Positions 13,756 to 27,329 of a stretch of DNA of 64,000 nucleotides are shown piece after piece (the stretch's first letter is position 1; the number at the start of each line of letters is the position of its first letter). The notes beneath the pieces are model-generated. The model worked only from the letters and a program-made list of their open reading frames with translations. It was not told the DNA's origin and ran no database searches. This DNA is from a bacterium (GTDB lineage Bacteria > Chloroflexota > Dormibacteria > Aeolococcales > Bog-877): assembly GCA_021791415.1 (NCBI GenBank), contig JAJYWQ010000058.1, positions 1 to 64,000 of the forward strand. Reading direction: 5' to 3'. A program made the translations under genes and the position numbers.

Positions 13756-14061
13756 TCAGCGGCGAGAAAAGCCCTGGACCACCTCCATCACCTCATCCAG
13801 GTACTGGTCGCCCTCCCCCCGCCTGATCCCGTCAGACACACAGTGGGCGAGGTGCTCGCGCAGAAGTAGGAAGCCGATCTGCTCCAGGGCTGCGGTGGCC
13901 GAGCGGATCTGGATGAGCACCTCCGGGCAGTAGCGCTCCTCCTCGACCATGCGGGCGATCCCGGCCACCTGGCCCTCCACCTTGCGAAAGCGCTGGAGAA
14001 GCTGGGGTTTCGTAGCCTGGTAGGAGCCGCGGCGGCCGGTGCCGGCTGGTGCAGAGCTCAT
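13756..14061 (-). CDS. CsoR/DUF156-family metal-sensing repressor
   Basis: FRKVEGQVAGIARMVEEERYCPEVLIQIRSATAALEQIGFLLLREHLAHCV, including Cys...His-x-x-Cys ligand positions. Confidence 0.88.
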   Translation of the reverse strand: MSSAPAGTGRRGSYQATKPQLLQRFRKVEGQVAGIARMVEEERYCPEVLIQIRSATAALEQIGFLLLREHLAHCVSDGIRRGEGDQYLDEVMEVVQGFSRR

Positions 14062-15758
14062 GCCCCGCCCGCGCCGCCTGAACCCGCGAGGCCCGCCGCC
14101 GCCGCCAACCGGCGTTGGAACTCGGCGCTGCATGCCTCAGAGCAGAAGTAGTGGGTCAAGCCCGCGAGTTGGAAGCTGGACGCCGCCGCGGCGGCGTCGA
14201 TCTCCATCCCGCAGACCGGGTCGGTCACCCGCCTCGAAGCCAGGCGGGGATCCAGGAAGCGGCCGGGGTCGGCGGCGAATCGGTCCCGGCAGGACAGCGC
14301 GCAGAAGTAGTAAGTGGCGCCATCGTGGGTGAGGGTGGCCGTGGCGTGCTGCCGGTCCACCTCCATCCCGCAGACGGGGTCGACGGCGGAGCGGGCACCT
14401 ACACCTCGCGGGGCAGCGTCGGGCATTGGGGTTCCTCCCTGTTCAGGTGAGCCGGTCTCGGAGGCCATCCGGTCGCGGCAACGATCGGAGCAGAAGTAGA
14501 TGGTCGACCCCGCGAGCACCAGGGTCGCCGGGGCGTTGGCGATCTCCACCTGCATGCCGCAGATGGGGTCTATGGCGTAGCCGGCGCTGCCGCCGGCCAC
14601 GCGGCGGCGCCGGTACTCCCAGAAGATGGCGGCCAGGGCGACCAGGGCCAGGAGGTCCAGGACACTCGTGTAGTTCATGGCGAAGGCGTTGGTTACCAGC
14701 TGCGTGGGCCGCCCCGGAGGAGCGATCCCAACCGCCTGGAAGAGGTACTGGACCATAAGGCCGGCGGCCGACATCACCACCCAGAAAGCCAGCAGCATCC
14801 GCAGGGCGAGCCTCCAACCGTAGAAGCGGCGGTAGATGAGGAGCAGCGGCATGCTGATCAGGTCGGCGAATACGAAGCTGACCACCCCTCCGAAGCTGAT
14901 CCCTCCCTTCCACAGCGCGGCGGCCAGGGGCACGTTGCCAACTGAGCAAACGAAGCTGATGATGGCAATGAAGGGTCCGATGACCGCGTTCTCCAGCGAG
15001 GACCAGAAGCCGTGGCCGGTGAGGAACAGTGCCTGCCAGGCCGAACTCGGCACCAGCGCTGCCAGAAAGCCCGCCACGAGGAAACCGATTGCCAGCTCGC
15101 GGCGAAGCATTGTCAGATCGGCAGCGGCGTAGGCGGCGGCATCGCTCCACCCCTCCCGGGTGCGCATCCTCGCCCGCCAGCCGGCTTCCCGCGGGTCCGG
15201 TGCAGGGTGCGGAGCTGCGCAGCTGGCCACCTCTTCGTCGCCGGCCGCCCCGGCGTTCAGCCGTCTCCGAGCCCGCTCCACCAACTGACGCGGGAAGAGA
15301 ACCCGGGCCACCAGCGCCAGGAGGGCAATCATGAGCAGCCCCCCGACGAACTCGCTGGCCGTGAACTGCCAGCCGATGAGCACGGCGAGCACCACCCCGA
15401 GTTCGATCACCAGGTTGGTGGAGGCGAACATGAACACCATGGCGGCGACGAAGTCGGCCCCCTTGGCGAAGAGCGACTTGGCCATCGCCGATGCTGCATA
15501 GGAGCAAGAGGAGGAGGCGGCCCCGAACCCTGCCGCCCGGGTCAACGAGAGCAGCCCCGGGCGGCCCAAGGCGGAACTCATCTCCCGGCGGGATACGAAT
15601 GCCTGAACGCCGCCCGAGAGCATGAACCCCAGGGTGAGGGCCCAGAGGGTCTCCCAGACCATGGCCAGGGCCTCACGCAGCCCCGCCCCGACCGAGCCCA
15701 GAACGTGTAGCGCGAGCATCGCTGCGACCTCCTCAGGCATGATACCCCCGGGGGGCAT
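14058..15758 (-). CDS. DUF318 (YraQ/ArsP-like) permease with three C-terminal YHS domains
   Basis: Multi-pass N-terminus GFGAASSSCSYAASAMAKSLFAKGADFVAAMVFMFASTNLVIELG, then DPICGMQV...YFCSDRCRDR, DPVCGMEV...YFCALSCRDRF, DPVCGMEI...YFCSEACSAEF. Confidence 0.85.
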   Translation of the reverse strand: MPPGGIMPEEVAAMLALHVLGSVGAGLREALAMVWETLWALTLGFMLSGGVQAFVSRREMSSALGRPGLLSLTRAAGFGAASSSCSYAASAMAKSLFAKGADFVAAMVFMFASTNLVIELGVVLAVLIGWQFTASEFVGGLLMIALLALVARVLFPRQLVERARRRLNAGAAGDEEVASCAAPHPAPDPREAGWRARMRTREGWSDAAAYAAADLTMLRRELAIGFLVAGFLAALVPSSAWQALFLTGHGFWSSLENAVIGPFIAIISFVCSVGNVPLAAALWKGGISFGGVVSFVFADLISMPLLLIYRRFYGWRLALRMLLAFWVVMSAAGLMVQYLFQAVGIAPPGRPTQLVTNAFAMNYTSVLDLLALVALAAIFWEYRRRRVAGGSAGYAIDPICGMQVEIANAPATLVLAGSTIYFCSDRCRDRMASETGSPEQGGTPMPDAAPRGVGARSAVDPVCGMEVDRQHATATLTHDGATYYFCALSCRDRFAADPGRFLDPRLASRRVTDPVCGMEIDAAAAASSFQLAGLTHYFCSEACSAEFQRRLAAAAGLAGSGGAGGA

Positions 15759-15770
15759 AGGCCTCTGGTC

Positions 15771-16682
15771 TCAGAAGGGGGGAGGGGGCACCAGGAGGAC
15801 TCCCAGGACCAGCTGGCCGCGCCGGCGGGCCAGCTGCTGGATGGTGCGGAGGACGCTGGCCGCGGCGGGTGAGATGGACTCGGCCCAGAGCTGGAACCCC
15901 TGGTTCAGGACCTCGAGCTCGCGGATTTGGGGGACGGTCGCGCGGAGTGCCTGCTGCACCTCCTCAGGAAGGGGGTCGGACTCCAGGCTCTTCACCCAGT
16001 CGGCGGCCACCTGGCGAGGGGTCGAGCGGGCTTTCGGCTCGGAGAGCGCCAAGATCGCAGAGGCCAGCTCCCGCACCCTGCCGAAGAGAACCTCGTTACC
16101 CCGGGCGCGGGCCAGCCGCTCCAAGACCTCCGTTACGGGAGCGGGTAGGAGCATGCGGCCCAGGATCGGGGAGACCGGCAGTGCCCAGCCCCCGCCCAGG
16201 ATGTCCGCCCACTCTCCCGCGGCCTCCTCGGAGAGAGGGCGGCGGAGTCGGCCGAAGATCCCCAGGCTCTCTCGAGGGGTGGAGTGAGCCGCGGCCAGGT
16301 AGGCGGCCACCGCCTCCGCGCTCGCCTCCTCGGACTCGAGGGCACGGTCCACCGCCTGGAGCAGGCCGTCCAAACGGGACCGCTCCTGCTCCAGGGTGCG
16401 GCGGTGCCGCTCCAGAGCCGGCCGAAGAGATTCCTCCGCGCCCAGGCGCGGAAGGCTTGCCGAGATCTCGGCAAGGCTCATACCCAGGCTGCGCAGCAGA
16501 TCGATCTGGAGGAGCAGGAGCAGCTCGCCAGCGCCGAAGTAGCGGTAGCCGCTGGGAGTTCGTGCCGGGTTCACCAGCCCCAGTCGTTGATAGTGCCGGA
16601 TGCGTCCGGGCGTGACCCCGGTCAGCTTGGCCGCCTCTCCGATCTTGAGGCGGGGGGACGCGTCCGCATCAAATGAGCTCAC
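15771..16682 (-). CDS. MerR-family transcriptional regulator
   Basis: KIGEAAKLTGVTPGRIRHYQRLGLVNPARTPSGYRYFGAGELLLLLQI. Confidence 0.88.
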   Translation of the reverse strand: MSSFDADASPRLKIGEAAKLTGVTPGRIRHYQRLGLVNPARTPSGYRYFGAGELLLLLQIDLLRSLGMSLAEISASLPRLGAEESLRPALERHRRTLEQERSRLDGLLQAVDRALESEEASAEAVAAYLAAAHSTPRESLGIFGRLRRPLSEEAAGEWADILGGGWALPVSPILGRMLLPAPVTEVLERLARARGNEVLFGRVRELASAILALSEPKARSTPRQVAADWVKSLESDPLPEEVQQALRATVPQIRELEVLNQGFQLWAESISPAAASVLRTIQQLARRRGQLVLGVLLVPPPPF

Positions 16683-16685
16683 GGC

Positions 16686-16723
16686 TTGACTCTACGACGG
16701 TTTCAAGGTTTAGAGTCCTAAAC
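16686..16723 (+). promoter_or_regulatory. Divergent merR/hpnH promoter-operator: TTGACT-N19-TAGAGT (+) with GACTCTA/TAGAGTC inverted repeat and GTTTAG-AGTC-CTAAAC palindrome
   Basis: -35-like 16686-16691, -10-like 16711-16716, inverted repeat arms 16688-16694 and 16711-16717, palindrome 16708-16723. Confidence 0.6.
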
Positions 16724-16768
16724 GATCAAGCCAGGCAGGGCCGTCACCCGAGCGGCCGGAGGAAGCAG

Positions 16769-17773
16769 ATGTCGATCCCGGTGCGACAGAAGATCAAGGT
16801 TGGCACCTACCTCATGTCCCAACGCCTGCGCGGGGTGAAGAAGTTCCCCCTGGTGCTGCAACTGGAGCCCCTCTATCAGTGCAACCTGGAGTGTGTCGGT
16901 TGCGGCAAGATCCAGCACCCCGATGACATCCTGCGCCGCCGTTTGAGCGTGCAGCAGTGCGTCGACGCCGTCGAGGAGTGCGGGGCCCCGGTGGTCTCGA
17001 TCGCTGGGGGTGAGCCCCTGGTGCACAAGGAGATCGACCAGATCACCCAAGCCCTGCTGGAGCGCAAGAAGTACGTCTACCTCTGCACCAACGCCATCCT
17101 CATGGAGCGCAAGCTGGACCTCTTCAAGCCCCACCCGTACTTCGCCTGGTCGGTGCATCTGGACGGGCTGCGGGACCGCCATGACGAGTCGGTGAGCCGC
17201 AAGGGGGTCTTCGACAAGGCTGTTGCTGCCATCCGGGAGGCCAAGCGGCGGGGATTCCGGGTCACCACCAACACCACCTTCTTCACCCACGACAGCGCCA
17301 AGTCGGTTCGTGAGGTGCTGGACTTCCTCAATGACGACCTGCAGGTGGACAACATGCAGATCTCCCCGGCCTACGCCTACGAGAAGGCACCAGACCAGGA
17401 GCACTTCATGGGTGTGGACCGCACACGGGCGATCTTCCGTGAGGCCTTCTCCGAGGGTCGGCGCGGGAAGTGGCGGCTCAACCACTCGCCCCTGTTCCTG
17501 GACTTTTTGGAGGGCAAGGTCGACTTCGAGTGCACCCCCTGGGGCATCCCCTGTTACTCGGTCTTCGGCTGGCAGCGGCCCTGCTACCTGCTGGCGGATG
17601 GGTACGCCAGCACCTACAAGGAGCTCCTCGAGACCACCGACTGGGACCAGTACGGCCGCGGGCGCAACCCCAAGTGCGAGAACTGCATGGCCCACGCCGG
17701 GTACGAGCCCACCGCGGTGCTTAGGACTTTGGGTTCCCTCAAGGAGTCGGCGCGGGCGGCGGTGGCCCACTGA
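16769..17773 (+). CDS. hpnH: HpnH-like hopanoid-biosynthesis radical SAM protein (adenosyl hopene transferase)
   Basis: MSIPVRQKIKVGTYLMSQRLRGVKKFPLVLQLEPLYQCNLECVGCGKIQHP...CTPWGIPCYSVFGWQRPCYLLADGY...NCMAHAGYEPTAV. Confidence 0.92.
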   Translation: MSIPVRQKIKVGTYLMSQRLRGVKKFPLVLQLEPLYQCNLECVGCGKIQHPDDILRRRLSVQQCVDAVEECGAPVVSIAGGEPLVHKEIDQITQALLERKKYVYLCTNAILMERKLDLFKPHPYFAWSVHLDGLRDRHDESVSRKGVFDKAVAAIREAKRRGFRVTTNTTFFTHDSAKSVREVLDFLNDDLQVDNMQISPAYAYEKAPDQEHFMGVDRTRAIFREAFSEGRRGKWRLNHSPLFLDFLEGKVDFECTPWGIPCYSVFGWQRPCYLLADGYASTYKELLETTDWDQYGRGRNPKCENCMAHAGYEPTAVLRTLGSLKESARAAVAH

Positions 17774-17801
17774 CAATTGGAGCGTTCCGGGACGGCGTAC
17801 G

Positions 17802-18824
17802 ATGGCCGGGCCAGTGCAGGTCCTAGATCGGCTATCCCGACCGCTGCGCGACCTCAGGGTCTCGGTCACCGACCGCTGTAACTTCCGCTGCCAGTACTGC
17901 ATGCCCCGGGAGGTGTTCGGGCCGGGGTTCCGTTTCCTGCCTCGCTCGGAGGTCCTGACCTTCGAGGAGGTGGAGCGGGTGGTGCGTGTCCTGGTTCCGT
18001 TGGGAGTCTCGAAGGTGCGCCTGACCGGAGGCGAGCCCCTGCTGCGGCGCGACCTGCCCCTGCTGGTGCGCCAGCTTGCCGAGGTGCCGGGGGTCCTGGA
18101 CCTCGCGCTAACCACCAACGGGCTCCTACTCGGTCGGATGGCGGACCAGCTGGCCTCGGCCGGGCTGAGACGGGTCACGGTGAGCTTGGACTCTTTGGAC
18201 CCTGAGGTCTTCGCCGAGATGAGCGGGGTGGGCGCGCGGCTGGAGGTGGTGGTCGCGGGCATCGAGGCCGCGGTCGCGGCCGGGCTCGGGCCCATCAAGC
18301 TCAACTGCGTAGTCCGCCGGGGCCTCAACGACCGCGGCCTGCTGGAGCTCGCCGCTTTCGCCCGGGACCGGGGCCACGTCTTGAGGTTCATCGAGTACAT
18401 GGATGTCGGCGAGAGCCATGGCTGGAGGCTCGACGAGGTGGTGCCCAGCTCCGAGGTGCTGGAGCGGATCGGGCAGCGGTGGGAGCTGGAGCCGGAGGGG
18501 CCCACATACCCGGGTGAGGTGGCCACCCGCTACCGCTACCGCGACGGTGCCGGCGAGGTGGGGGTCATCTCCTCGGTGAGCCAGCCGTTCTGCGGAGCCT
18601 GCACCCGCCTCCGCCTCAGCGCCGACGGCCACCTCCACACCTGCCTGTTCTCCCGGGGCGGGACCGACCTCCGCCCCACGCTGCGTGGTGGCGCCGGGGA
18701 CGACCAGCTGAGCGAACTGGTGCGCGGGATCTGGCATGGGCGGTCCGACCGGTACTCCGAGGAGCGAGCCGGGGGGGTGATGGCCGGGCCCCCCAAGGTG
18801 GAGATGTCCTACCTCGGCGGCTGA
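17802..18824 (+). CDS. moaA: GTP 3',8-cyclase
   Basis: RDLRVSVTDRCNFRCQYCMP, KVRLTGGEPLLRRDLPLLV, FCGACTRLRLSADGHLHTCLFS. Confidence 0.93.
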   Translation: MAGPVQVLDRLSRPLRDLRVSVTDRCNFRCQYCMPREVFGPGFRFLPRSEVLTFEEVERVVRVLVPLGVSKVRLTGGEPLLRRDLPLLVRQLAEVPGVLDLALTTNGLLLGRMADQLASAGLRRVTVSLDSLDPEVFAEMSGVGARLEVVVAGIEAAVAAGLGPIKLNCVVRRGLNDRGLLELAAFARDRGHVLRFIEYMDVGESHGWRLDEVVPSSEVLERIGQRWELEPEGPTYPGEVATRYRYRDGAGEVGVISSVSQPFCGACTRLRLSADGHLHTCLFSRGGTDLRPTLRGGAGDDQLSELVRGIWHGRSDRYSEERAGGVMAGPPKVEMSYLGG

Positions 18825-19522
18825 GTGCGGGCCGGCACCTCCTGCCAGATGTACCCCACGCCGGGCAGCGTCGTGAGCCAGCGCGGGTGGGCCGGGTCGT
18901 CCTCCAGCTTGGCCCGCAGCCGCTGGACGATCGTTCGGACATAGGTGTGCTCCGCGGTGAAGGCGGGGCCCCAGACCGCGGCCAGGATCTCCCGATGGGT
19001 GCGCACGCGGCCCCGGTGGCGCCAGAGCTCGTGGAGCACGCCAAGTTCCATCGGGGTAAGCCGGACCGGGACGCCCCGGCGGAGGACCTGGCCCGCCGAC
19101 ACGTCGAGGCGGAGGTCTCCTGAGACCAGTACCCCCTCAGAGGGTGGGGGAGATGCCCTTCGGAGGCGGGCTTCCACGCGCGCCAGTAGTTCCTGGAGGC
19201 TGAATGGCTTGGCCAGGTAGTCATCGGCCCCCGCGCGCAGCGCCGCCACCTTGTCGGTGTCCTGCCCCCTGGCGCTCACCACCAGGATCAAGGGGTTGGA
19301 CTCCCACTCGCGGACGGTACGAAGGAGGTCCATGCCGTCAATGTCAGGGAGCCCAAGGTCCAGGATGACAAGGTCTACTGGTTCGCTCCCGAGCCGCTTC
19401 AGCGCGGAGCGTCCATCTCCCACCAACTGGACCCGGTGGCCGGAGTCCGAGAGGGCATCGCGAAGGAACCGGCCCATGCCGGAGTCGTCCTCGACCACCA
19501 GGATCGAGCCCCTGTTCTTCAA
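18809..19522 (-). CDS. kdpE: OmpR-family response regulator, KdpE-type
   Basis: ILVVEDDSGMGRFLRDAL, LVILDLGLPDIDGMDLL, GADDYLAKPFSLQELLARVEARLRR, C-terminal winged helix; adjacent to KdpD-like kinase; TTG start inferred. Confidence 0.88.
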   Translation of the reverse strand: MKNRGSILVVEDDSGMGRFLRDALSDSGHRVQLVGDGRSALKRLGSEPVDLVILDLGLPDIDGMDLLRTVREWESNPLILVVSARGQDTDKVAALRAGADDYLAKPFSLQELLARVEARLRRASPPPSEGVLVSGDLRLDVSAGQVLRRGVPVRLTPMELGVLHELWRHRGRVRTHREILAAVWGPAFTAEHTYVRTIVQRLRAKLEDDPAHPRWLTTLPGVGYIWQEVPARTQPPR

Positions 19523-20757
19523 ACCGCGGCCGCCTTCTCGCTCAAAGAGGCCGGTCGCTGAGTCGCCTCCAGGGGAAGGAGGAAGTGGAACGCAGTACCC
19601 GCGCCTTCCCCTCTGGACTCCACCCAGACCGCTCCTCCCATGGCCTCCGCCAGCCCCCGGCAGACGGCCAGCCCCACGCCCAGCCCGCCACCCCCGCGCC
19701 CACGGGAATAGCGCTCGAAGAGATGCTCCTGCAGGTCGGCGGGGATGCCTCTGCCGCGGTCCTGTACCCGACACTCGGCGGCCGTCTGCCGCGCCGGTGA
19801 TGGTGAGACCACCTCGATGGCGACCTCCCGCGTGCCGGCATGCCGAGACACATTGGAGAGGGCGTTGTCCAGAAGCTGCTGGACCCGGTCCCAATCCGCC
19901 AGCACCAGGACCGGTGTCTCGGCCAAGCGCAGGCTGGCGGTCAGCTGCCCGCGCCAGCGCCGGGCGGCCTCCCGGACGGCGTCGCAGAGGTCGACCACCT
20001 CGATCTCCACGTCCAACTGGCCGGTCTCGATCCGTGCCAGCTCCAGAAGGTCGCGGATGAGGCGGTCCAGCCGACGCGCTTCGGCAACGATGTCCCGGGC
20101 GTGGCCCGGGTGGTGGAGCTGATGGAGTCCCGGGTCCTCCAGGAGTGCGGTGCCGTGGCCGAGGAGCGCGGCCAGGGGAGTGCGCAGCTCGTGGCTCACG
20201 CTGGCCAGCAGCTCCCGCCGGAAGCCCTCGGCCCGGCGCGTGGCCTCCAGGGCAGCCTCGGTACGGGCCAGGTCAGTGCGGGCCGAGAAGCTGGCCTCCA
20301 GCTCGGCGCCCGCCCGCAGAAGCCCGGCGTTGGCCGCCTCCAACCGGTCCCGGGCGGTGCGCAGCTCCTCCAGGCTGCGGCGGCGCGAGGTGGCCAGCAA
20401 TCCCACCCCGAGGGACACCAGCAGGAAGGCCGCCCAGGCGGCCAGCGCGGGGGCCGAATAGATCGTGAGCCTCCCCACTGGCGGGAGGAAGAAGTAATCC
20501 ATCAGCAGGGCCGAGGTGAGAGAGCCCACCAGGGCGGTGACCCCCCCGAAGAGGAGCGACCCCAGCACCACCACGGCGAGGTAGAGGAACCCCGAGGTCT
20601 GGATCTCGGACGGGGCGCGCAGCGCCACCAGCGCCGCGGTCAGACCGGCGAGGGCGGCCACGGTGATCGTGGTGCCGAGCAGCGAGCGCCATGGCTCCGG
20701 TGGCGAGAGCGGTCCCCCCACAGACTTGCTGCGCACTTCAGATGGCATAGTTCCCAT
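19519..20757 (-). CDS. kdpD: KdpD-type histidine kinase C-terminal half (DUF4118 membrane domain + HisKA/HATPase) lacking the N-terminal KdpD/Usp domains
   Basis: FLYLAVVVLGSLLFGGVTALVGSLTSALLMDYFFLPPVGRLTIY, LASVSHELRTPLAALLGH, DNALSNVSRHA, GLGVGLAVCRGLAEAMGG. Confidence 0.88.
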   Translation of the reverse strand: MGTMPSEVRSKSVGGPLSPPEPWRSLLGTTITVAALAGLTAALVALRAPSEIQTSGFLYLAVVVLGSLLFGGVTALVGSLTSALLMDYFFLPPVGRLTIYSAPALAAWAAFLLVSLGVGLLATSRRRSLEELRTARDRLEAANAGLLRAGAELEASFSARTDLARTEAALEATRRAEGFRRELLASVSHELRTPLAALLGHGTALLEDPGLHQLHHPGHARDIVAEARRLDRLIRDLLELARIETGQLDVEIEVVDLCDAVREAARRWRGQLTASLRLAETPVLVLADWDRVQQLLDNALSNVSRHAGTREVAIEVVSPSPARQTAAECRVQDRGRGIPADLQEHLFERYSRGRGGGGLGVGLAVCRGLAEAMGGAVWVESRGEGAGTAFHFLLPLEATQRPASLSEKAAAV

Positions 20758-20761
20758 CGCA

Positions 20762-23038
20762 GTGGTTGACGGCCAGACGGATCGTAGCAACCGGGAGTCG
20801 AGCGCCCGGCGAGACCTCGAGGGGCCGCGGCGCGGCCGGCTCAAGGTCTTCATCGGAGCTGCCCCGGGCGTGGGGAAGACCTTCGCCATGCTGCAGGAGG
20901 CTCATGTCCTCGCTTCCAAGGGGAGGGACGTGGTGGTGGCCTGGGTCCAACCGCACGGGCGGCCGCTCACCGAGGAGGCGGCATCGGGGCTGGAGCGGGT
21001 GCCGCCGGTTCGCATCACCTACCGAGGGTTGGAGGTCGAGGAGATGGACCTGGAGGCCACGCTGCGCCGCCGCCCGGCTGTGGCCCTGGTGGACGAGCTG
21101 GCCCACACCAACGTCCCCGGAGTGAAGCACGAGCGCAGATGGCAAGACGTCGAGGAGCTCCGCCAGGCGGGGATCGAGGTGTGGACCACTGTGAACATCC
21201 AGCACGTGGAGAGCCTGCGGGACGTGGTCGAGCGGGTCACGGGAGTCGCCGTTCGAGAGACGGTGCCGGACCCGGTGCTCGACTCCGCTGAGGAGCTGAC
21301 GCTGGCGGACATGACCCCAGAGGCACTGCGCAAGCGCATGCGCCATGGCAACATCTACCCGACCGACCGGATCGAGCTGGCGCTGAACAGCTTCTTCCGG
21401 GAGAGCAACCTGGCGGCTCTCCGGGAGCTGGCGATCTGGTATGTGGTCCAGCACGAATCCCGCAGCGGGCGCGAGCCCTCGCTACCCGGGGTGGGGGACA
21501 GGGTTCTCATCGTCACCTCCTGCAGCAGTCATGCCCCCGGCCTGATCAGGCGCGGCACGCGGATGGGCCAGCGTCTCCGGGCGCCGGTCACCGTGCTGGC
21601 CCTGAGCCAGAGGACTCCGTCAGCGGGGCAGCTGGCCAAGGTCCGGGGACTGGCCCTGGACCTGGGAGTGGAGTTTCGGCTGGAGGTGGCGGCGCACCCG
21701 GTCGAGACAGCCCTCCGAGTGGCCCGCGAGGTGGGGGCAACCCACCTCATGGTGGCGGCAGAACCTACCGAGCTGAAGGAGGGATTGGGCGCCGGGGTGG
21801 TGCGGGGACTGCTCGCCGATCTCGGAGACCGCCACCTGCACGTCATTGGACGACGCCTGGGGAAGGTCCACCAATGGGATGGCAGCGACCGGCCGGATCC
21901 AGCTGCGCTGCTCGCCGGCCTGGATGCCGAAGTGGTCAGGGGGAGCCTTCGTCTGTACCTCGGGTACGCCCCGGGGGTGGGCAAGACCACCCGGCTGCTG
22001 GAGGAGGCGCTCCGCCGCCAGCGGAGAGGAGCGGATGTGGTGGTGGCTGCTCCCAGCGGCGTCCCCAGCCCCACTACGGAGTTCCTCCTCAGCCAACTCA
22101 AGGTGGTGCCGTCGCCGGCCACCGGGGGGATCGACGTGGACGGCATCCTGCGGCGCAACCCCGGCGTCGTCTGCGTCGACGACCTCGGCCTGCGCGACCT
22201 GCAGACCGGCAGGCCGCGGTACCAACAGGTCTGGCGCCTTCAGGATGCCGGGGTCAACGTGGTGGCCACCGTCGGGGTGATCGACCTGCCGGGATTCGAT
22301 TCGGCTCGGGAGCAGCTGGGGCGGTTCCGCAGCCAGGAGCATGGTGACCACGAGGCCGTCCCCCAGGAGGCGCTCGACAGGGCTGACGAGATCGAGCTGG
22401 TTGACCTGCCACCTCCCGAGCTCCGGGATCGCATCCGCTCCGGCTGGGTGACAGCTGCGGCTGACGTGGGGGCGGCACTCCAGGTGTTCTCGGAGCCCCT
22501 CTTGGAAGAGCTCCGGGCGTCCGCACTTCGGATCGTGGCCACCCACACCGAGCGCCGGCGGGCGCGCTACGCGGGGCCCGCAGGCGCCCATGGCCTTTGG
22601 CCGGTTCAGGAGCGCATCATGATCGCCCTTCGCCCCGACCGCATAGACCGGGCCGAGGCGTTGCTGGAGGCGGGGTTGCTGGCGGCCCGGCGAGAGGACG
22701 CCGCGCTCGTCGTGATCGCGGCCGTGTCGCCTCGACCTGATCTGACCGAGTCGCGCCGGCTGGAGCGGCTGGCCCGCCTGAGCCAGCGCCACGGGGTCAG
22801 GCTTGAGCCGCTCCAACTTGCGGGTGGTGTTGCTGAGACGCTGGTGGAGTGGGCGGAGCAGCACCAGGTGACGGCGATCTTCATGCCCGCCCCGCGGCGG
22901 CGGCGCCGCCTTCCCTGGGACAAGCCGGTGGCGCTCTCGGTCATAGAGCGCTGCCGGGAGCTGGACGTCCACATCCTGGGAGAGAAAGCGCTCCCCGGGA
23001 CCGCGGGCCTCAGCGGAGTCGGGCCAGCGCCGAGTTGA
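20762..23038 (+). CDS. Stand-alone KdpD-type osmosensitive sensor with two tandem KdpD_N + Usp-like units
   Basis: Two P-loops GRLKVFIGAAPGVGKT and GSLRLYLGYAPGVGKT; first unit [46 protein letters not shown], second VVCVDDLGLRDLQTGRPRYQQVWRLQDAGVNVVATVGVIDL. Confidence 0.85.
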   Translation: MVDGQTDRSNRESSARRDLEGPRRGRLKVFIGAAPGVGKTFAMLQEAHVLASKGRDVVVAWVQPHGRPLTEEAASGLERVPPVRITYRGLEVEEMDLEATLRRRPAVALVDELAHTNVPGVKHERRWQDVEELRQAGIEVWTTVNIQHVESLRDVVERVTGVAVRETVPDPVLDSAEELTLADMTPEALRKRMRHGNIYPTDRIELALNSFFRESNLAALRELAIWYVVQHESRSGREPSLPGVGDRVLIVTSCSSHAPGLIRRGTRMGQRLRAPVTVLALSQRTPSAGQLAKVRGLALDLGVEFRLEVAAHPVETALRVAREVGATHLMVAAEPTELKEGLGAGVVRGLLADLGDRHLHVIGRRLGKVHQWDGSDRPDPAALLAGLDAEVVRGSLRLYLGYAPGVGKTTRLLEEALRRQRRGADVVVAAPSGVPSPTTEFLLSQLKVVPSPATGGIDVDGILRRNPGVVCVDDLGLRDLQTGRPRYQQVWRLQDAGVNVVATVGVIDLPGFDSAREQLGRFRSQEHGDHEAVPQEALDRADEIELVDLPPPELRDRIRSGWVTAAADVGAALQVFSEPLLEELRASALRIVATHTERRRARYAGPAGAHGLWPVQERIMIALRPDRIDRAEALLEAGLLAARREDAALVVIAAVSPRPDLTESRRLERLARLSQRHGVRLEPLQLAGGVAETLVEWAEQHQVTAIFMPAPRRRRRLPWDKPVALSVIERCRELDVHILGEKALPGTAGLSGVGPAPS

Positions 23039-23588
23039 GCTGAAGCACGTCGACGTAGGACGGACCCAGGAAGCCCAGCTCTGGCCCCACCGTCAGGGTC
23101 CGGATGAGCCGACGCAGCTGTAACTCTGGAATCCCGGTGCTCTTCGAGACCATCGGCACCTGGGCAAAGGCGTCCTGCGGGGTGATGTCCGGGTCGATCC
23201 CGCTTCCCGAGCTGGTGACCAGGTCGGCCGTCGGTTGAGCTCCGATCCGGCGGAGCTGAGCTGCCTCGGCTCGGACGGCCGCCACCAGCTGCCGGGACCT
23301 GGGACCGAGGTTGCTTCCCCCGGATGCCCCGGACACCCCGTCAAGGCGGAGCGGGTTGTCCGGGTCGGAGCGGCCGTGGAACCACTGTGGTCCGCTCCAC
23401 GGCTGACCCACCAGGGTGGAGCCGTTCTTGGTCAGAGAGCCGTCGGCCTGGTGGGGGAAGAGCAGCTGCGACACACCGGTGCCGGCCAGGGGATAGGCCA
23501 GCCCGAAGAGAAGGAGGGCGCCCACCGCCAGGACGACCGCGGGGCGCAACTGGGTGATCACGGGTCGGGTCCTCCGGTCAGTAGGCAT
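23010..23588 (-). CDS. kdpC: K+-transporting ATPase subunit C
   Basis: [24 protein letters not shown]...[17 protein letters not shown]...[21 protein letters not shown]. Confidence 0.93.
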
Positions 23589-25638
23589 GGAGAGCTGTCA
23601 GCAGCAGGTCGATCAGCTTGATCCCCAGAAAGGGGGTGACGATGCCACCGAGCCCGTAGATGAGAAGGTTGCGTCGCAGGATGGCGGCCGCGCTGGAGGG
23701 GCGCCAGCGCACCCCCCTAAGGGCGAGCGGGATCAGGGCGACGATCACCAGTGCGTTGAAGATCACCGCCGACAGCACCGCGCTCTGCGGGCTGTGCAGC
23801 CGCATGATGTTGAGAGCCTGCAACTGGGGGTAGGACGAGGCGAAGAGGGCCGGGACGATGGCAAAGTACTTGGCCACGTCATTGGCGATGGAGAAGGTGG
23901 TCAGGGCGCCGCGGGTGATCAGCAGCTGCTTTCCCACCTCGACGACATCGATGAGCTTGGTGGGGCTGGAGTCCAAGTCAACCATGTTGCCGGCTTCCTT
24001 GGCGGCCTGGGTGCCCGTGTTCATGGCCAGGCCGACGTCCGCCTGGGCGAGGGCGGGGGCGTCGTTGGTGCCGTCCCCGGTCATCGCCACCAGCTTGCCC
24101 CCCTCCTGCTCCTCCCGGATCAGCCGCATCTTGGTCTCGGGGGTGGCCTCGGCCAGGAAGTCGTCCACCCCGGCCTCCCGGGCGATGGTGGCGGCGGTGA
24201 GGGGGTTGTCACCGGTGATCATCACGGTGCGGATGCCGGCCTGACGCAGCTCCTCAAACCGGGCCCGGATGCCCGGCTTGACCACATCCTTCAGCTCGAC
24301 CACCCCGAGCACCTTCGGCCCGTCAGCGACCACCAGGGGGGTGGCCCCCTCGCCGGCCAAGCGCTGAACCGTCGGCTCCAGGCCCGCAGGGATGACGCCC
24401 CCCTGCTCCGACACCCAGGCGCGCACCGCGTCGGCGGCCCCCTTGCGCACCTGGCGCCCGGGCAGGTCCAGGCCCGACATCCTGGTGGTGGCCGAGAAGG
24501 GCACGAACCGAGCCTCGGAGGGGGCTGAAGTGGGGGCCAGGTCGTGTCGCTCCCGGGCCAGGGCCACGATCGAGCGCCCCTCGGGGGTCTCGTCTGCCAG
24601 GGAGCTGAGGAGGGCCGCTGCGGCCAGCTCGCGCTCAGCGCACCCTGCCACCGGGTAGAAGCCCGCCGCCATTCGGTTGCCCAGGGTGATGGTGCCCGTC
24701 TTGTCCAGGAGCAGAGTCTGGACGTCCCCTGCCGCCTCGACCGCCCGCCCGCTCATGGCCAGGACGTTGCGCTGCACCAGACGGTCCATTCCGGCGATGC
24801 CGATCGCGGAAAGGAGGGCCCCGATGGTGGTGGGGATGAGACACACCAGGAGGGAGATCAGGACCACCACCGAGACCGGTGAGTGGGCGTAGCTGGCGAA
24901 GGGATAGAGGCTGACCACCACCGGTATGAAGATGACCGTGAGGGCGGCGAGAAGGATGGAGAGGGCGATCTCGTTGGGCGTGCGCTGGCGGTTGGCTCCC
25001 TCCACCAGGGCGATCATCCGGTCGAGGAATGTGTTGCCAGCCGTGGCGCTGATCCGGATCACGACGCGGTCCGACAGCACCCGGGTTCCGCCGGTGACCG
25101 CCGAACGGTCACCACCCGACTCCCGGATCACCGGAGCGGACTCCCCGGTGATGGCCGATTCGTCGACCGAGGCTATCCCCTCGACCACCTCCCCGTCCGA
25201 GGGAATGAGGTCGCCGGCCTCACACACCACCAGGTCTCCCGAGGAGAGCTGGGCGGACGGGACCAGCTCCTCTGCGCCGTCGGCCCGGAGGCGGCGGGCC
25301 TCGGTTTCAGACCGTGTGCGCCTCAGGGTGTCGGCCTGGGCCTTGCCCCGCCCCTCCGCCATCGCCTCGGCGAAGTTGGCGAAGAGGACGGTCAGGAAGA
25401 GCCAGCAGGTGATGCTCCAGGTGAAGACCGAGGGGTGGAGTATGGCCTCCGCCAGGGTCCCCGCGGTGCCCACCAGGACCACGAACATCACCGGGTTCCG
25501 GATCTGCACCCGAGGGTCGAGCTTTACGATAGACCCTCGCAGCGCCGCCTTGAGGATCGCCACATCGAAGAGGCCGCGCCTCTGGGCCACCCCGCGGCTG
25601 CCCGCGTGACCGCTGCCCCCGAGGGGTGCTGGGAGCAT
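23578..25638 (-). CDS. kdpB: K+-transporting ATPase subunit B
   Basis: [81 protein letters not shown]. Confidence 0.97.
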
Positions 25639-27329
25639 CAGAAGAACCTCCCATGGCTCAGCTGCTCCAGCAGCGGCCCCAGGGAGAGGGCGGGGAAGAA
25701 GGTGAGGCCGCCCACGATGAGGATCACCCCCAGCAGAAGCACCACGAAGGTGGCGTTGTCAGTCCGGAAGGTGCCGCGCGACACCGGGACCGTCTGCTTG
25801 CTGGCGAGAGCTCCGGCCAGGGCCAGCACCGGGAACATCACGCCAAAGCGGCCCACCAACATGTCGATGCCGCCAGCCAGGTTGTAGAAGGCGGTGTTGC
25901 CGTTGAGGCCGGCGAAGGCTGACCCGTTGTTGTTGGCCTGGGAGGTGAGTGCGTAGAGGATCTCGGTGAAGCCATGGGGGCCGGAGTTGAAGGCACCCGC
26001 TCGCCCGGCAGGCAGGGCGGTGGCGATCCCCGTGATGACCAGAACCGCCACGGGCATGACCAGCACTCCTAGGCTGGCCAGCTTCACCTCTCGAGACTGG
26101 ATCTTCTTCCCCAGGTACTCGGGGGTCCGGCCAACCATCAGCCCGCCGATGAACACCGCCACGATGGCGAAGAGCAGCAGGGTGTAAAGGCCGCTGCCGT
26201 CGCCGCCAGGCGTTATCTCCCCCAGCATCATTCCGGTGAGCAGACCAAAGCCGCCCATGGGCGTGTAGGAGTCCGGGGTGGAGTCCACCGACCCGGTGGA
26301 GGTCTGGGTGGAGGCCACGTCGTACAGGGTGGAGTCCAGGACCCCGAAGCGCACCTCCTTGCCCTCCATGTTGCCCTGGGGCTGGGCAACCACCCCGGCC
26401 GCCGCCACCGCCGGATTCGGCTGCGACTCTGAGTAGCCGGTGAACCCCGTCCAGACGGCGAAGATGAGGCCCATGGCCGCCAGCAGAGCCAACCCTTGAC
26501 GGCGGGATCCCACCATCTTGCCGAACGTGTAGGTGAGGGCCACCGGGATGATCAGCAGCAGAACCACCGACAGGAGGTTGGTGAGCTGGGTGGGGTTCTC
26601 CAAGGGGTCGGCGCCGTTGGCGTTGAAGAAACCCCCGCCGTTGGTCCCCAGCTGCTTGATGGACTCCATGAAGCCCACCGGCCCGCGGGGAATCAGCTGG
26701 GTGGCGCCGTTGAGCACGTCGTGGATGAGCACCGGCCCGGCGAGCGTCTGGACGGATCCCTGGGCGACATAAACCGCCCCGGCGACGAAGGCGATGGGCA
26801 GGAGCACGTAGAGGCACCCTCGGACGGTGTCCACCCAGAAGTTGCCGATGGTGCTGGCGCCGGTCCGGCTCAGCCCGCGCACCAGAGAGATCGCCACCGC
26901 GATCCCCACCGCCGCTGAGATGAACTGCTGGACGGTGAGCGCGGCCATCTGGCTTAGGTAGGACATGGTGGTCTCGCCGGCGTAGTTCTGCCAGTTCGTG
27001 TTGGTGAGAAAGGAAACCGCGGTGTTCCAACCGAGGAGTGGGGGTACCGCTGGCAGGTGCTGAGGGTTGAGCGGCAGCTGGCCCTGGAGACGAAGGAGGC
27101 CATAGGTGAGCAGGAGGGAGACGCCGGAGAACACGACCAGGGAGACGGCGTACTCCCGCCAGCGCTGCTCGTGCCCGGGATCCACCCCGAGGAGACGGTA
27201 GACGACCCGCTCCACCCAGGACAGCCAGTGCACGCGGCCTGAGTACACGGCCTCCAGATAGCTGCCCAGGTACCGCCAGGAGAGTGCCAGGAGGGCCGCC
27301 AGCAGCAGCACTGTGAGGGCGAAATGCAT
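25638..27329 (-). CDS. kdpA: K+-transporting ATPase subunit A
   Basis: [65 protein letters not shown]. Confidence 0.97.

Follow-up and report, generated by a model that had tools for sequence, protein, structure and literature searches.

A conserved MerR-type divergent control region that probably governs hpnH, a gene of hopanoid synthesis, within a Dormibacterota family

The region between the divergent genes merR and hpnH is probably a MerR-type control region, in which a dedicated MerR activator would turn on hpnH and would repress its own gene by covering the merR -10 element. We studied it in a stretch of 64,000 nucleotides of bacterial DNA (the window) and in the relatives of its source within one uncultured Dormibacterota family. 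Hopanoids are bacterial sterol-like lipids, hpnH is the first gene in the building of their side chain, and a MerR-type switch of its own would let the cell adjust the side-chain step apart from the rest of the hopanoid pathway. Extended hopanoids are the lipids behind many geological biomarkers. If the reading is true, the step that commits hopene to these compounds has a dedicated regulator, and the protein concerned points to a sensor domain of a new type. The mechanism is already known; the target and the sensor domain are what is new. We found no MerR regulator of hopanoid synthesis or hopanoid genes in the titles and abstracts of the open-access literature and, since most subscription papers lie outside that search, this is weak evidence of novelty.

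The features of the locus are collected in Table 1. An earlier note, made from the window alone, had read the intergenic region as a MerR-type divergent promoter, with a plus-strand TTGACT and TAGAGT separated by 19 nt, a second TAGAGT on the minus strand 6 nt ahead of the GTG of merR, and an inverted repeat GACTCTA/TAGAGTC. All of these are present in the sequence as described, and the repeat is exact. The pattern TTGACY-N19-NANNNT matched only once in the whole window, considering both strands, and this match was the merR-hpnH region. A consensus promoter scan of positions 15000-19000 that accepted only spacers of 16-18 nt found none, as expected for a spacer of 19 nt. The same note had suggested a comparison of the intergenic regions of relatives, and had named lack of conservation of the spacer and dyad as grounds for giving up its reading. 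We made this comparison and found the spacer and a dyad kept in all 16 merR-hpnH pairs, which excludes non-conservation and supports the reading as a divergent promoter of the MerR type.

Table 1. Features of the merR-hpnH locus and its neighbours, in positions of the window
Feature	Position	Strand	Remarks
CsoR-like metal-responsive repressor	13756..14133	-	PF02583, 88 bits
ArsP-type permease with YHS domains	14058..15758	-	Pfam ArsP_1, 205 bits; YHS; 12 nt past merR
merR, MerR-family regulator	15771..16682	-	303 aa, GTG start; Pfam MerR_1
MerR protein domains			residues 12-80, HTH; about 86-116, helix and putative coiled coil; about 119-298, orphan C-terminal domain, helical
merR start codon GTG	16680..16682	-	predicted leaderless
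hpnH -35, TTGACT	16686..16691	+	identical in 16/16
30-bp dyad of the earlier note, GACTCTA-N16-TAGAGTC	16688..16717	.	arms 16688-16694 and 16711-16717; not the conserved operator
merR -10, TAGAGT	16689..16694	-	within the predicted operator; TAGAGT in 14/16, GAGAGT in 2/16
Predicted MerR operator, 21-bp dyad ACTCT-N11-AAGGT	16689..16709	.	centre 16699
Spacer of the hpnH promoter	16692..16710	+	19 nt
Second palindrome, GTTTAG-AGTC-CTAAAC	16708..16723	.	overlaps both the hpnH -10 and the predicted start region
hpnH -10, TAGAGT	16711..16716	+	19 nt past the -35
hpnH Shine-Dalgarno, GGAGG	16758..16762	+	from the sequence; most of the 16 have a comparable GAGG-type sequence
hpnH, adenosyl-hopene transferase	16769..17773	+	radical SAM; TIGR03470 equivalog
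moaA	17802..18824	+	TIGR02666, 381 bits; 28 nt past hpnH

The intergenic alignment and the table of elements gave a distance of 19 nt between the -35 and -10 of hpnH, without an indel, in every one of the 16 genomes, which agrees with the 19 or 20 bp of MerR-regulated promoters. The -10 itself reads TAGAGT in 13 of them, with CAGGGT, GATCAT and GATTAT in one genome each; it is weak in genus g3, which carries CAGGGT. The A in its second and the T in its sixth position are invariant, as are those of the merR -10. The merR -35 is poor, with three of six positions matching in the window. In all 16 genomes the merR start codon lies close behind the minus-strand -10, at a distance of 6-8 nt, or of 3 nt in a single genome, and on account of this short distance we predict a leaderless merR mRNA; the codon is usually the sole in-frame start nearby. 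Across the 16 genomes the core block is conserved while much of the neighbouring intergenic sequence has diverged.

Within this block, ACTCT-N11-ARRGT occurs at the position of the predicted operator in 16 of 16 genomes. When up to two mismatches were allowed, the core operator pattern matched at this one place in all 16 genomes and nowhere else, and a longer operator pattern, in those genomes that it matched, likewise picked out this single site. A reversed control pattern had no match in these genomes, and the core was absent from the two family genomes where the merR-hpnH pair was not found. With one operator per genome, at merR-hpnH only, the regulator looks dedicated to this locus.

The arrangement CTTGACTCTACGACGGTTTCAAGGTTTAGAGT found here has the same layout as the E. 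coli K-12 copA promoter, CTTGACCTTCCCCTTGCTGGAAGGTTTAACCT, at which CueR acts: both can be written CTTGAC-YYT-N11-AAGGT-TTA, with a 21-bp dyad, a 19-bp spacer and a dyad that overlaps the end of the -35. The CadR and PbrR sites share the layout of CueR/copA. The HmrR site also has the layout seen here, and the CueR signal has been given as ACCTTCCC-(5)-TGGAAGGT with a 19-bp spacer (PMC1526738). MerR proteins bound in such spacers kink the DNA, bringing both boxes into register (PMC9909328). At the locus studied here, the -35 and -10 of hpnH, 19 bp apart, would be too far from each other for a sigma factor to make good contact with the two at once. The 21-bp dyad between them would be bound by a MerR dimer which, when a signal reached its C-terminal domain, would distort the DNA and so switch hpnH on. 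Because the left half-site covers the minus-strand -10 of merR, bound MerR should also repress its own leaderless gene. Comparable divergent promoters, with the operator between the -35 and -10 of the target and overlapping the promoter of the regulator, are those of merR/merT in Tn501 and Tn21; autorepression of merR is known there (PMC1526738) and we infer it here. That system differs from the present one in its 7-4-7 palindrome, its sensing of Hg(II) and its mercury genes. For CadR, the regulator gene is described as not regulated or only repressed (PMC1526738). Given the conserved spacer and dyad, the proposal of the earlier note that MerR activates hpnH and represses itself is likely to stand, with its operator corrected to the 21-bp dyad.

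A further palindrome in the note, GTTTAGAGTCCTAAAC, is likewise present, in imperfect form, with 6-nt arms GTTTAG and CTAAAC around AGTC. It recurs in genera g1, g2 and g4, its exact copies being confined to the merR-hpnH locus, and a copy with one mismatch (GTTTAGCTCCCGAAAC or similar) lies elsewhere in several g1 genomes. Genus g3 (L022) has a different palindrome in its place, GGTTCAGG-GTAGT-CCTGAACC, as if symmetry had been maintained through changes on both sides, in what is a single event. The MerR activator model does not account for this second palindrome. Its position over the hpnH -10 would suit repression and, as the operator overlaps both promoters, MerR might be a plain repressor of the two genes, relieved by a ligand and acting without DNA distortion. 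We consider this unlikely, since a plain repressor would not need a 19-nt spacer fixed without indel in all 16 genomes, and since the dyad is placed where CueR-type activators sit.

The N-terminal part of the MerR protein speaks for a regulator of this family. A MerR-type winged HTH was detected above cut-off (PF13411, MerR_1, 60.6 bits; PF00376, 51 bits) and was matched in all 15 aligned orthologues. Its best PDB matches were SkgA, BrlR, TipA and Mta, so that the closest solved HTH domains come from the group of MerR proteins that, with BmrR, have large sensor domains for signals other than metals. These proteins have an HTH, then a coiled coil, then a large C-terminal domain; the one studied here resembles them, with a putative coiled coil. 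The helix at residues 86-116, after the HTH, was predicted with modest confidence in a monomer model (pLDDT about 50-65), and the C-terminal domain modelled in isolation was predicted to be mostly helical (pLDDT 80). The latter domain carries an almost invariant segment, N-x-GF-x-LWAESISP-x-AA. It had no match of note in Pfam or NCBIfam, nothing convincing in the PDB by sequence and nothing there by fold at E ≤ 0.001, and neither sequence nor fold similarity to the sensor domains of TipA, Mta, SkgA, BrlR or BmrR; a TipAS domain was found in none of the 15 orthologues at E ≤ 1, nor by fold. As a tentative suggestion, which we hold with low confidence, this orphan domain might bind a hopanoid or a precursor, or read the state of the membrane, making MerR a dedicated hopanoid-responsive factor that controls side-chain extension separately from hopene synthesis.

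The MerR protein of the window has no cysteine, 13 of the 15 aligned orthologues have none either, and each of the other two has a single cysteine that is not shared. Without a conserved cysteine in the family, this MerR lacks the means for the classic modes of metal or [2Fe-2S] sensing. We therefore rejected the sensing of a metal or redox signal by MerR, put forward in the earlier note: conserved sensor cysteines such as those of CueR, ZntR, CadR and SoxR are lacking. CueR senses metal through cysteines and acts on the gene of a metal exporter, whereas here a lipid enzyme is the target and a long helical domain serves as the sensor. A link to metals could be at most indirect, through the genes for an ArsP-type permease and a CsoR-like protein that follow merR in many relatives. 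These genes raise the possibility that the true targets of MerR are itself and the two downstream genes, with a role in metal handling, and that hpnH merely shares the promoter region. In genera g1, g2 and g4 the three genes are indeed adjacent and co-oriented. However, neither the permease gene nor the CsoR-like gene was seen beside merR in g3 and g5, where the operator and hpnH remain, and the 19-bp promoter with its dyad in the activating register points at hpnH. Together with the lack of a conserved cysteine, this leads us to regard metal-handling targets as quite improbable.

The rival to the 21-bp dyad is the 30-bp repeat that the earlier note had proposed as operator. The repeat GACTCTA-N16-TAGAGTC is exact in the window, where it is the sole match at up to two mismatches (0.07 expected by chance), and its arms pair at seven of seven positions in 13 of the 16 genomes. 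In the three deepest genomes (g3 and g5) only 4, 3 and 3 of the seven pairs are left, although merR, hpnH and the remainder of the promoter persist; on this ground of conservation the 30-bp repeat was rejected as the MerR operator. Its centre, 16702.5, is also 3.5 bp off the copA-like register, and each arm is already constrained by both promoters, serving one as its -10 and lying within or beside the -35 of the other, so that the symmetry is better explained by two overlapping face-to-face promoters. We thus hold it very unlikely that MerR binds the longer repeat. The symmetry of the 21-bp dyad is itself imperfect, with five of ten pairs in the window and four to eight across the 16 genomes. 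In the three deepest genomes the centre 16699.0 was nevertheless the top-scoring one, with six fully paired columns, a value matched by 3 of 2000 column shuffles. With all 16 sequences, centre 16699 again ranked first by fully paired columns (matched by 31 of 2000 shuffles), but its paired fraction was matched by 697 of 2000, and symmetry alone is accordingly modest.

Among 61 genomes searched, a full-length merR orthologue (49-93% identity) was present in 16 of the 18 genomes of the family; hpnH was found in the same 16, adjacent to merR and divergent from it in each. In the two family genomes that yielded no such pair, moaA was also missing (G003) or started at a contig edge (G016), and absence of the pair there is therefore not evidence of loss. 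When 301 and 400 genomes sampled from the phylum were searched with profiles, neither the full-length MerR nor its C-terminal domain was detected outside this family. That all 16 genomes belong to one family would fit a conservation due to inherited gene order only, with hpnH not regulated by MerR, a reading made most improbable by the survival of the core block amid diverged intergenic sequence and by the presence of exactly one operator site per genome.

Outside the family, shc was located upstream of hpnH and on the same strand in 14 sampled loci, 13 from a sister family and one from another family of the class. In these 14 loci the 160 nt ahead of hpnH contained no MerR-type operator, and no such regulator was found in the sister families that carry shc upstream of hpnH. 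Within the family, shc sits with a prenyl-synthase gene and hpnC-like genes in the 17 genomes that yielded a cyclase gene, and the available stretch around it, up to 1500 nt on either side, showed no hpnH. The tailoring gene hpnH thus stands apart from the hopene cyclase operon in this one family, under what appears to be its own switch; we infer that hpnH moved out of the cyclase operon in this family and was placed under the MerR switch, or the reverse. The SHC proteins of the family (L055-L068) are about 39-47% identical to those of the sister families (L112-L128), as against about 75% for HpnH; a separate origin is possible for the cyclase operon. The nearest precedent we met for the proposed regulation is EcfG, which reportedly controls hpnP in Rhodopseudomonas palustris (Kulkarni 2013, listed among the references of PMC4337730). 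There too, the regulated gene is a single hopanoid-tailoring one; EcfG differs in being a general stress factor, and hpnP in serving C-2 methylation, not side-chain extension.

The identity of HpnH is clear from its score of 532 bits against TIGR03470, for which the cut-off is 225. Downstream of hpnH, moaA is found in nearly all loci long enough to tell, L091 being an exception, and the two genes are possibly cotranscribed. Adjoining the locus, positions 18809-27329 of the window hold open reading frames that by eye resemble a KdpDE two-component pair and subunits of the Kdp potassium-ATPase, and kdpD/kdpE-like genes lie near moaA in several relatives.
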